DNA of 39,257 nucleotides. It comes from Marinitoga hydrogenitolerans DSM 16785 (GTDB lineage Bacteria; Thermotogota; Thermotogae; Petrotogales; Petrotogaceae). The stretch covers positions 1 through 39,257 of the forward strand of contig NZ_FQUI01000017.1 of the NCBI RefSeq assembly GCF_900129175.1, written 5' to 3'. Positions 19,626 through 30,766 of the stretch are shown one piece after another. Both the position numbers and the translations under genes were made by a program. Position 1 is the stretch's first letter; each line of letters opens with the position of its first letter. Below the pieces are notes generated by a model. That model had not been told where the DNA came from. It saw only the letters and a list, made by a program, of their open reading frames with translations, and searched no databases.

Positions 19626-19654
19626 ATTTGAAATAATATAATAATCAAATTATT

Positions 19655-19820
19655 CCAAACGGCTCTCCGCGCTTTCACGCGACAGTCACATAGGTATTCC
19701 CTATGCAACCAGGCATGTAAGATGGGTAAATCTTACACCCTTCGGCAACCTCGCCTTTCGTCTACCCCAAGCCTACCCTAGCGATAGGTAGATTACTCAT
19801 CTTGGTTGCGCCTCCGTTTG
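19655..19820 (-). promoter_or_regulatory. lysine riboswitch (L box) aptamer
   Basis: The minus strand carries the L-box core in order: GGAGGCGCAACC, AAGATGAGTA, GACGAAAGGCGAGG, GTTGCCGAAGGG, GCCTGGTTGCAT, TATGTGACTGTC and GGAGAGCCG. The P1 ends pair (CAAACGG at 19820-19814 with CCGTTTG near 19663-19657). The location upstream of asd and a full lysine operon, with a terminator following, fits control by lysine. The match is by eye to the known consensus. Confidence 0.93.
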
Positions 19821-19906
19821 TTCGTAAAACATATTAACTTTTGATGTAGTTTAACAAATAAAATTGAACAAAAGATTACAAAAACACAACAACAATATTA
19901 ATCGAA

Positions 19907-20094: not shown

Positions 20095-20185
20095 TGGCGG
20101 AGAGGGTGGGATTTGAACCCACGGATGGGTTTTGCCCATCACACGCTCTCCAGGCGTGCGCCTTAGACCGCTCGGCCACCTCTCC
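20095..20185 (-). tRNA. tRNA-Ser (anticodon GGA)
   Basis: About 91 nt with encoded CCA. The acceptor stem GGAGAGG pairs with CCTCTCC. The D arm is GCCGAGCGGTCTAAGGC. The anticodon stem CACGC/GCGTG holds loop CTGGAGA, giving anticodon GGA. A long class II variable arm (ATGGGCAAAACCCAT) is typical of tRNA-Ser. The T arm is TGGGTTCAAATCCCA. Confidence 0.97.
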
Positions 20186-27725: not shown

Positions 27726-28817
27726 TTAAATCACTCCACTAATAGCTTTCACTGGACATCTACTCTGACACAAACTACAACCAAAGCATTTACTTTCATC
27801 AACAATAACATGTTTGTTTTCTTTATCTACCGTTATTGCCCAATACGGACATACCATTTCACATAATTTACAGAAGGTACATTTGTTTAAATCTATTTTA
27901 GGATATTTTGGTTCAAAAATAACCTCTTTTTTCTTTAATCCTGTTTTTTTAACTTCTTCTATACTATTAAATTCATATTTTTCTAATACTTTTGGTAACT
28001 GTTCAACTATAGTTTTGTACAATTGTTTTCCTCTAATTAAAGCTGCAGATAACATTTGAACAGCATCAGCTCCAGCAAGAAGATATTCTATAACATCATC
28101 TGCAGAAGCTATTCCTCCAACACCTATTACTGGTATCTCAGGAACTGCAGTTTTTATAGTATTTACTAATGCCAATCCAAGATTTTTTATAACTGGTCCA
28201 GAAATCCATACTTGCCCTTTATCATTTCCAATTAAATTTGTTCTATTTTCTATATCAATTAACATTGTTGGGCCAAGAGAATTTATAGCAACAACCCCTG
28301 TACCGCCACTTTCTAACACCATTTTGGCAAATTCAACTGGATCTGGAATATGCGGACTCATTTTCATAAAGATGGGTTTTTTTGTATGCTTTCTTATTGT
28401 TCTAACTGTTTCTGCGATATTATCCAAATTTTTCCCTACGTAATGTGTTGAAATTTCAAAAGCATCTGCAAACTGATCTAATTGAGGTATTAAAACTTCC
28501 ATATCTTCTTTCGTATACCCTGCACTTACAATTAAAGGTAAATCAAGTTCCTGTTTTAATCTTGGCAATATTTCATTTATCCATTTTTCTGGTGGTAGTT
28601 CTGACCATAACTCTGCATTTACAATATAATTATTTGTTCCATATATACATGGCCTTGGAACTTCTGCAGCTTTTGTGGAAATAGTTTTTGTAACCATTCC
28701 CCCAATCCCAAGTCTTGCTAAATACAACATTTTTTCATCATCACCAACAAGTGGCCCGGATGCTGGCATTAAAGGATTTTTTAATTTTATTCCAGCAAAT
28801 TCTGTACTTAAGTCCAT
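27726..28817 (-). CDS. PreA-like dihydropyrimidine/dihydroorotate dehydrogenase with two 4Fe-4S clusters
   Basis: 363 residues. Residues 1-300 form an FMN TIM barrel of the dihydroorotate dehydrogenase superfamily (GIKLKNPLMPASGP, PIFMKMSPHIPDP, GTGVVAINSL, VIGVGGIASADDVIEYLLAGAD). Residues 315-363 form a ferredoxin-like tail with CTFCKLCEMVCP and CFGCSLCQSRCP, giving two 4Fe-4S clusters. This layout is that of PreA, the catalytic subunit of NAD-dependent dihydropyrimidine dehydrogenase. No preT partner or pyr gene is beside it, so the electron donor and substrate are open. The start has GGGGGAG upstream. Confidence 0.85.
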   Translation of the reverse strand: MDLSTEFAGIKLKNPLMPASGPLVGDDEKMLYLARLGIGGMVTKTISTKAAEVPRPCIYGTNNYIVNAELWSELPPEKWINEILPRLKQELDLPLIVSAGYTKEDMEVLIPQLDQFADAFEISTHYVGKNLDNIAETVRTIRKHTKKPIFMKMSPHIPDPVEFAKMVLESGGTGVVAINSLGPTMLIDIENRTNLIGNDKGQVWISGPVIKNLGLALVNTIKTAVPEIPVIGVGGIASADDVIEYLLAGADAVQMLSAALIRGKQLYKTIVEQLPKVLEKYEFNSIEEVKKTGLKKKEVIFEPKYPKIDLNKCTFCKLCEMVCPYWAITVDKENKHVIVDESKCFGCSLCQSRCPVKAISGVI

Positions 28818-29229: not shown

Positions 29230-30504
29230 TTATGAATATGCTGTTAGGTCGAGTAATCCATGACCGGATAGCGTAAATACTATAACTTTTTCTTCTTTAT
29301 TTTTTTTCGCTTTAAGCGCTTCTTTAATTGCACCAGTAATTGCATGTGATGATTCAGGTGCTGGTATTATTCCTTCTAATTTAGCAAAAAGGTTAGCAAC
29401 TTCAAAGGTTTCATCCTGTGTAAATGCCACAGCTTCCAGCATATTTTCATGTTTTAATTTGGCAATAATCGGTGCAGATCCATGATATCTCAATCCACCT
29501 GCATGTATTTTTGGAGGTATAAAATCCTTTCCAAGTGTATACATTTTCATTAATGGAGTTAATCCAGCTGTATCCCCATTATCATATCTATACTCTCCCT
29601 CTGTTAATGTTGGACATGATTTTGGTTCACAGGCTAAAAACTTTATATTTTTTCCTGATAATTTTTCTGGAATAAATGGCAAAATTGTTCCTCCAAGATT
29701 TGAGCCACCCCCATGACATCCAATTATAACATCTGGTTTTTCATTTATTTTTTCAAATTGTTTTTTTATCTCTAGTCCAATTATAGTTTGGTGTAATAAT
29801 ACATGATTTAAAACACTTCCAAGTGCGTATTTAGCTTTATTTCTACTAAATACAACTTCTAAAGCTTCACTTATAGCTATTCCAAGACTACCTGGATTTT
29901 CTTTATCTATATCTAATATTTTTTTACCAAAATTAGTTTCTAAACTCGGGCTTGGTGTTACCTTGCCTCCAAAAAGATTTATGAGACATTTTCTCATTGG
30001 TTTTTGCTCAAAACTTGTTTTTACCATATATACTTCAATGTTTAAACCAAATTTTAAACCAGCATACGATAATGCACTTCCCCATTGTCCAGCACCTGTT
30101 TCTGTAACCAATGTTTCTATTCCAGAAATTTTATTATAATATGCCTGCGGAATTGAAGTATTGGTTTTATGACTCCCCGTTGGAGAAACTCCTTCATATT
30201 TGTAATATATCTTTACAGGTGTCTCAAGATATTCCTCCAAATTTGTTGCTCTAATAAGCGGAGAAGGTCTGAATATCGCATATTCTTTCAATACTTCTTC
30301 TGGAATTTTTATAAACCGTTCTGTAGTTACTTCCTGTTCAACTAAAGGATCTGGAAAAATAGCACTTAATTCTTCTGGTTTCATGATTTCCTTTGTTTGT
30401 GGATTCAATGGTGGATCAAGTTGAAATGGTAAATCTGCCAATGCATTATACCAATACTTAGGTATCTCCTCTACTGATAAATATACTCTTTCTCTTCTAC
30501 CCAT
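29230..30504 (-). CDS. trpB: TrpB2-type tryptophan synthase beta chain, stand-alone
   Basis: 424 residues from the ATG at 30504; an in-frame GTG at 30513 is less likely because GGAG overlaps it. It is a PLP enzyme that joins indole and serine to give tryptophan. The PLP lysine is K113 in PTGSHKTNTSIPQAYY. TETGAGQWGSAL and GCHGGGSNLGG (phosphate loop) follow. The long N-terminus (ALADLPFQLDPPLNP) and length mark the TrpB2 subgroup, which occurs without a TrpA partner. No other trp gene is nearby. The gene lies behind a tryptophan attenuator, so it should be induced when charged tRNA-Trp is scarce; indole salvage is the likely role. Confidence 0.93.
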   Translation of the reverse strand: MGRRERVYLSVEEIPKYWYNALADLPFQLDPPLNPQTKEIMKPEELSAIFPDPLVEQEVTTERFIKIPEEVLKEYAIFRPSPLIRATNLEEYLETPVKIYYKYEGVSPTGSHKTNTSIPQAYYNKISGIETLVTETGAGQWGSALSYAGLKFGLNIEVYMVKTSFEQKPMRKCLINLFGGKVTPSPSLETNFGKKILDIDKENPGSLGIAISEALEVVFSRNKAKYALGSVLNHVLLHQTIIGLEIKKQFEKINEKPDVIIGCHGGGSNLGGTILPFIPEKLSGKNIKFLACEPKSCPTLTEGEYRYDNGDTAGLTPLMKMYTLGKDFIPPKIHAGGLRYHGSAPIIAKLKHENMLEAVAFTQDETFEVANLFAKLEGIIPAPESSHAITGAIKEALKAKKNKEEKVIVFTLSGHGLLDLTAYS

Positions 30505-30537
30505 AATACACACTCCACTCTCCTTTCCTGTAATAAT

Positions 30538-30570
30538 AAAAAAACCGGATATCCAAATTGGATATCCGGT
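30538..30570 (-). terminator. attenuator terminator (3:4 hairpin) of trpB
   Basis: On the minus strand ACCGGATATCC (30570-30560), loop AATTT, GGATATCCGGT (30554-30544) and seven T's. It stands between the trp leader peptide and trpB. It would stop transcription unless its 5' arm is captured by the antiterminator partner at 30638-30633. Confidence 0.88.
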
Positions 30571-30603
30571 GATTGCCTACACAAACAAAATTAGCTCTGA
30601 GAA

Positions 30604-30711
30604 CTATAGAGCATAACAAAACAGTAGACACCCACCGGGCGTCCACCACCAATTTAAGCTATTTAAATTTATTGAATTATTCATAATTCTACGCTTTACT
30701 GTTTTTTCCAT
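30604..30711 (-). CDS. trpL: tryptophan leader peptide with three consecutive Trp codons
   Basis: 35 codons. The peptide begins MEKTVKRRIMNNSINLNSLN, then WWW at codons 21-23 (30651-30643), then TPGGCLLFCYAL and TAG. GGAGGGG lies five bases before the ATG. It is not expected to act as a protein; a ribosome stalled at the Trp codons would control the RNA fold behind it. The position between a two-box promoter and an intrinsic terminator, directly before trpB, is the classical arrangement. Confidence 0.85.
   Translation of the reverse strand: MEKTVKRRIMNNSINLNSLNWWWTPGGCLLFCYAL
30624..30646 (-). promoter_or_regulatory. 1:2 hairpin and antiterminator arm of the trp attenuator
   Basis: GTGGACGCCC, loop GGT, GGGTGTCTAC form a 10-pair hairpin (with two G-U pairs). 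Its 5' arm overlaps the last Trp codon. CCGGTG at its centre (30638-30633) is complementary to CACCGG at the base of the terminator (30571-30566). Stalling at the Trp codons would block the 1:2 fold and free this arm to break the terminator. Confidence 0.75.
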
Positions 30712-30737
30712 TTTAACCCCTCCGGTATTTTTTTGAT

Positions 30738-30766
30738 ATTATACTACATTTTTTTAGAAAAGTAAA
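30738..30766 (-). promoter_or_regulatory. promoter of the trp leader and trpB
   Basis: On the minus strand TTTACT (30766-30761), 17 bases, TATAAT (30743-30738). The leader RNA would start about 20 bases before the trpL ATG. Confidence 0.7.

Follow-up and report, generated by a model that had tools for sequence, protein, structure and literature searches.

Anatomy of the leader upstream of trpB2

The window analysed here, a 39,257-nucleotide stretch of the Marinitoga hydrogenitolerans DSM 16785 genome (contig NZ_FQUI01000017.1), carries on its minus strand a trpB2 gene preceded by a short open reading frame with three consecutive Trp codons. A previous sequence-only reading of this locus had proposed ribosome-mediated trp attenuation, raising the question of whether the leader is a switch responding to charged tRNA-Trp, and of how far such a switch extends among relatives. 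The anatomy, conservation and alternative pairings of the leader, as well as the missing trp genes, can be read from the genomes and are described below.

The leader adjoins trpB2 directly upstream. The promoter, Shine-Dalgarno site, 35-codon WWW leader, hairpin and terminator listed by the sequence-only reading were all recovered on the minus strand by sequence inspection and folding (Table 1). The protector hairpin comprises 10 pairs, two of them G-U, and its 5' arm includes the last base of Trp codon 2 and the whole of codon 3, while the terminator stem has 11 pairs followed by seven T's at 30543-30537. The leader stretch folds with a z-score of -3.9, none of 200 dinucleotide shuffles being equally stable. 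The TGGTGGTGG run occurs once in the 39-kb window, and arises by chance in 15 of 15,000 shuffled upstream regions (~0.1%). The same reading had noticed that CCGGTG is complementary to CACCGG; this complementarity is real but was understated, since the six bases are part of a 15-position antiterminator in which 5'-CCGGUGGGUGUCUAC (30638-30624) pairs with 5'-GUAGGCAAUCACCGG (30580-30566) with one mismatch. This duplex (-23.2 kcal/mol, p = 0.004 against dinucleotide shuffles) invades the terminator. Two hallmarks of attenuators are hence found in the window leader: tandem cognate codons in a short translatable ORF, and control codons overlapping the first of three mutually exclusive stems, with an antiterminator that invades an intrinsic terminator.

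Table 1 Features of the trpB2 locus in the window (positions of the whole stretch)
Feature	Position	Strand	Evidence
Sigma-70-type promoter, TTTACT-17-TATAAT	30738..30766	-	sequence; hexamers and spacing kept upstream in M. lauensis, G001 and G004
Promoter boxes: TTTACT, 17-nt spacer, TATAAT	30766-30761; 30743-30738	-	sequence
Leader ORF Shine-Dalgarno site, GGAGGGG	30717..30723	-	sequence; purine-rich site common to four Marinitoga species
Leader peptide ORF, 35 aa, MEKTVKRRIMNNSINLNSLNWWWTPGGCLLFCYAL	30604..30711	-	ATG 30711; stop TAG 30606-30604
Trp control codons, three consecutive, TGGTGGTGG	30643..30651	-	sequence; WWW/WWWW in 63/72 assessable Thermotogota trpB2 leaders
Protector hairpin (1:2), arms 30646-30637 and 30633-30624	30624..30646	-	folding; invariant in four Marinitoga species
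Segment 2, antiterminator 5' strand, CCGGTGGGTGTCTAC	30624..30638	-	duplex p 0.004; invariant among the four species
Segment 3, antiterminator 3' strand, GTAGGCAATCACCGG, overlaps terminator 5' arm	30566..30580	-	duplex test
Intrinsic terminator (3:4), stem 30570-30560/30554-30544 plus U7	30537..30570	-	sequence, folding
trpB2, TrpB2-type tryptophan synthase beta chain, 427 aa, regulated gene	29230..30513	-	profile matches

TrpB2 and the tryptophan genes of Marinitoga

The trpB2 product scored above the cut-offs of both NF009057 (689 bits, cut-off 366) and TIGR01415 (665 bits, cut-off 519), and reached only 153 bits with the trpB1 model TIGR00263 (cut-off 392). The closest named relative is M. 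lauensis, whose TrpB2 is 93% identical. Neither trpA nor trpC was found in any of seven Marinitoga genomes, and trpB1 matches as strong as those of other Thermotogota are missing from all seven. A trp operon at another place in the window genome was thus rejected, trpA, trpB1 and trpC all being absent. The sole TrpE-like gene in G000 scored 432 bits, below the trpE cut-off of 518, and the distribution of such genes across the genus does not track trpB2; we therefore rejected it as trpE and took it as PabB. Of the 49 TGGTGGTGG sites listed for the same genome, 30 were given as loci, and among these 30 no second Trp attenuator was found, none but that of trpB2 resembling a leader with hairpins.

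Because trpA, trpB1 and trpC are absent, TrpB2 is, on gene content, the only tryptophan synthase of Marinitoga. TrpB2 makes tryptophan from indole and serine, so its role in this genus is probably the salvage of scavenged indole, with serine, to tryptophan. The missing genes bear out the earlier description of an orphan indole-to-tryptophan enzyme. Other features were observed on the same strand of the window. Adjoining trpB2, positions 27726-28817 encode a dihydroorotate-dehydrogenase-like protein with a C-terminal ferredoxin domain, which matches several DHOD and PreA models, every one below cut-off. A lysine riboswitch (103 bits) lies at 19652-19824 and a tRNA-Ser(GGA) gene at 20095-20185.

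Proposed switch and its conservation within Marinitoga

Full-length trpB2 is present in four Marinitoga species, namely that of the window, M. lauensis, G001 and G004. In these four, hardly any change is seen in the promoter, the WWW codons, the protector hairpin, segments 2 and 3 or the terminator, whereas the N-terminal half of the leader and the spacer from the stop codon to segment 3 diverge in sequence and length. The leader peptides keep SLN/SVN-WWWTPGGCL. Segment 3 shows only two changes in the genus: a G-to-A change at 30576 in G001, which turns a G-U pair into A-U, and an A-to-G change at 30573 in G004, at the one unpaired position. Relatives were expected by the earlier reading to keep the Trp codons and the stems, and M. 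lauensis, G001 and G004 do keep both. Two other Marinitoga genomes lack trpB2 (G003, G006) and a third holds a fragment (G005). The M. lauensis gene (L065, L067, L069) is frame-broken in the six-frame search, yet gives a whole-length tblastn alignment; the break is possibly a (long-read) sequencing error.

We hold with high confidence that the element acts on a single-gene trpB2 transcript by ribosome-mediated transcription attenuation in response to charged tRNA-Trp, and the conserved WWW, stems and antiterminators of its relatives support the earlier reading on this point. When Trp-tRNA is scarce, the ribosome translating the leader would stall on WWW and cover the 5' arm of the protector hairpin, so that segment 2 could pair with segment 3; the terminator would not form, and RNA polymerase would enter trpB2. 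With ample Trp-tRNA, the ribosome would reach the UAG, segment 2 would re-pair with segment 1 behind it, and segment 3 would be left to the terminator, so that transcription would end ~24-33 nt before the trpB2 start. Stalling, termination and read-through, as well as their direction, are what we infer from the anatomy, and the words "complete" and "controlling", which the sequence-only reading had applied to the attenuator and its action on trpB2, are to be taken in the same sense.

In computed folding, the RNA past the leading edge folds as the antiterminator when the ribosomal A site is at W1 or W2, and the terminator alone forms when the ribosome has left the Trp codons behind or stands at the stop codon. 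Since the downstream folds differ with its position, the ribosome is predicted to decide the outcome. In Marinitoga, 17 bases separate segment 2 from the stop codon that follows it, and for that reason the off state under tryptophan excess would depend on the protector hairpin forming again once the ribosome has passed. The E. coli trpL leader differs here: it relies on masking, termination under excess tryptophan occurring through coverage of segment 2 by the ribosome. One family (f8) resembles E. coli in this respect, since a ribosome at its stop codon would mask segment 2.

Conservation across Thermotogota

TrpB2 was searched in 103 Thermotogota genomes and the upstream regions of the genes found were read. 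Three genes (G007, G011, G019), at a contig end or lacking the upstream region, stand outside the resulting count of 72. Of these 72 assessable genes, 63 follow a leader ORF containing WWW or WWWW, and in 54 of the 63 genomes concerned trpA has no match. One of the nine leaderless genes belongs to G010 and the other eight to the Thermotoga-type clade (G089-G096), each genome of which possesses trpA and a second, trpB1-type gene. The leader stands 1.3-1.7 kb upstream of trpB2 in G066 and G068. In G066 (L246), a WWWW leader ~1.34 kb upstream is separated from trpB2 by a substrate-binding-protein-like gene. This gene is presumed to share one operon with trpB2, which suggests an uptake function related to tryptophan or indole under the same attenuator.

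The antiterminator was tested in 50 leaders, that is, all those with a script-located terminator, each against 500 dinucleotide shuffles; two of them (G044, G024) precede trpB1-type genes and the others trpB2. The duplex was significant at p <= 0.01 in 46 leaders and at p <= 0.05 in 48, and in every one of the 50 it occupies three or more bases of that leader's terminator arm. We relied on this duplex test, as the pairing of terminator-foot bases in the minimum-energy fold (4.1 against 3.9 in shuffles) was uninformative. The antiterminator sequences differ by family: CCGGTGGGTGTCTAC/GTAGGCAATCACCGG in Marinitoga, CCCCGATTCGA/TCGAATCGGGG in f8, GGCAATTGTCC/GGACAATTGCC in f9, CCCCCGATCTG/AGATCGGGGG in f10 and CCCCAGATAGCG/CGCTATCTGAGGGG in f11.

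In an alignment of nine f8 members, 98.4% of the antiterminator pairs are kept, three of the four varying pairs have changed on both sides, and sliding the antiterminator by 1-3 columns lowers pairing to 22-50%. The covariation score was matched by 9 of 500 shuffles, a control that is blind to relatedness and is moderately exceeded. The f8 alignment alone is thus modest evidence of covariation, and the stronger point is the replacement of the whole duplex between families. A third hallmark of attenuators, a structure conserved with compensatory changes, is found both in the f8 antiterminator and in the different duplexes of each family. The protector hairpin varies, is weaker in some families, and is less conserved in f8.

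At the scale of the phylum, the conservation test proposed with the sequence-only reading gave leaders before 63 of 72 genes and an antiterminator rebuilt from different sequences in each family. The predicted switch is conserved in its logic and not in its sequence across Thermotogota. We think it reasonably probable that it is an old, phylum-wide trait, which indole scavengers devoid of trpA have kept while re-engineering its sequence, and which has disappeared from the Thermotoga-type clade, where trpB2 occurs together with trpA and trpB1, and from one further genome. Leaders with WWW and a terminator were also observed upstream of the trpB1-type genes of G044 (L159) and G024 (L161), in genera of the same family and order. 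Trp attenuation in these genera would extend beyond trpB2 to trpB1-type genes.

Alternative explanations

The strict conservation of WWWTPGGCL in four Marinitoga species could also reflect a TnaC-like arrest peptide, in which the nascent peptide and free tryptophan as a ligand stall the ribosome, so that high tryptophan and not scarce Trp-tRNA sets the switch. An arrest peptide is expected to conserve its peptide; across the phylum, however, the Trp codon run is constant and the residues that follow it change completely (WWWHSPP, WWWYCPDSVG, WWWQEAP, WWWKMGNCPPP), tracking the RNA pairings. The direction of such a switch would moreover be odd for an enzyme that makes tryptophan, and we consider this explanation very improbable. 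Slightly less probable still is a relic leader with constitutive read-through, trpB2 being unregulated by tryptophan. The loss of trpB2 from G003 and G006 and its reduction to a fragment in G005 would fit such decay, but drift is seen in the flanking parts, the pairing segments and Trp codons being invariant, which implies selection on the switch.

The same low probability is given to a ligand-binding riboswitch or a protein-binding leader of the type of the RF04312 "trpB motif", which its authors list as a riboswitch candidate (PMC11109978). The window element has a sub-threshold cmscan match to this model, of 27.5 bits against a cut-off of 59, but comparable scores are obtained at unrelated Thermotogota terminators, and the Marinitoga alignment displays no aptamer-like conserved core outside the pairing segments and control codons. 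In addition, leader ORFs with His, Tyr or Phe accompany the near-threshold RF04312 matches themselves. We rejected the window element as a member of RF04312, its score being below the cut-off and at background level. Attenuation by the translating ribosome is the explanation that we retain.

Relation to known attenuators

The window element has every feature of a classical ribosome-mediated attenuator that can be checked in a sequence. It resembles E. coli trpL in its tandem Trp codons within a short leader ORF, in its protector, antiterminator and terminator alternatives, and in the intrinsic terminator that precedes the structural gene; it differs by having three or four Trp codons instead of two, and by serving a lone trpB2 instead of a trp operon. 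The window leader has no match to the Rfam Trp_leader model, at the gathering score or at E up to 10, nor to the T-box covariance model.

Trp attenuators have been described in Proteobacteria and Actinobacteria (PMC1262725). Those of Corynebacterium and Streptomyces, with double or triple UGG, are likewise classical attenuators outside Proteobacteria, and in C. diphtheriae one is also predicted before an operon written trpB2A (PMC1262725). Their pairing sequences differ, and the gene named trpB2 in these bacteria adjoins trpA in an operon, in contrast to the lone TrpB2-family gene found here in a genome without trpA. His leaders have been described in Firmicutes (PMC2965389; PMC9413887). A survey of cis-regulatory RNAs that included Thermotogales, made with the Rfam models of that time, considered amino-acid attenuators probably gammaproteobacterial in origin, with very few transfers (PMC3766115). 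The sequence-only reading knew of no case described from such a bacterium, and in the open-licence literature we too found no description of Trp attenuation occurring in Thermotogota or acting on a lone trpB2. Attenuation by charged tRNA-Trp would therefore be of a known kind, in a phylum for which no description was found.

The RF04312 motif shares with the window element a hairpin followed by a terminator, sometimes before trpB (PMC11109978), and differs from it in several respects: the window element falls far below the cut-off, and the near-threshold matches in Clostridia have their codon run upstream of the modelled region and form a longer chain of alternative pairings. The best Clostridia matches, in the family of genome G411, score as much as 58 bits and narrowly miss the cut-off. 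Of 29 matches, all below cut-off, 28 have a leader ORF immediately upstream. Leaders ending in HHHHH precede a HisZ-like protein or amino-acid-binding proteins, and Phe/Tyr leaders, such as FYFSYFS and YYYSYYR, precede transporter-like proteins. Loci L175-L203 and L086-L108 hold these ORFs; a few of the Clostridia matches have Leu. The Rfam model begins after the leader ORF, which may be why the ORF was overlooked. The authors of the motif could not rule out a classic attenuator (PMC11109978), and His attenuators in Peptostreptococcaceae were predicted independently (PMC9413887). These sub-cut-off matches are a strong lead, not proof, that RF04312 is probably, at least in part, a leader-peptide attenuator class.

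WWW leaders were also observed outside Thermotogota. Deltaproteobacterial-type trpB2 genes and one labelled Armatimonadetes (L007, L009, L013, L020, L024) have them 200-335 nt upstream (WWWQAHSVCP and similar), with an apparently longer pairing relay, CTGCCC / GTGGGCAGGG / CCCTTCCCATG / CATGGGAAG terminator, the parity of which would fit Trp control with one extra toggle. In one Bacteroidales genome (L062), the leader MKTNNNIANFWWWHRVTPVS and a terminator lie ~160-100 nt upstream of trpB2. A one-step antiterminator was rejected in both groups, the duplex test not being significant.

Significance

These results would bring a phylum that branches deeply and is mostly thermophilic within the range of classical Trp attenuation by leader peptides, and suggest that RF04312, a listed orphan riboswitch candidate, consists at least in part of leader-peptide attenuators. 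A function of TrpB2 outside tryptophan synthesis had been proposed (PMC1854888). Thermotogota with this leader very probably make TrpB2 only under tryptophan shortage and, because its expression would be tied to Trp-tRNA, the orphan TrpB2 is implied to serve tryptophan supply.
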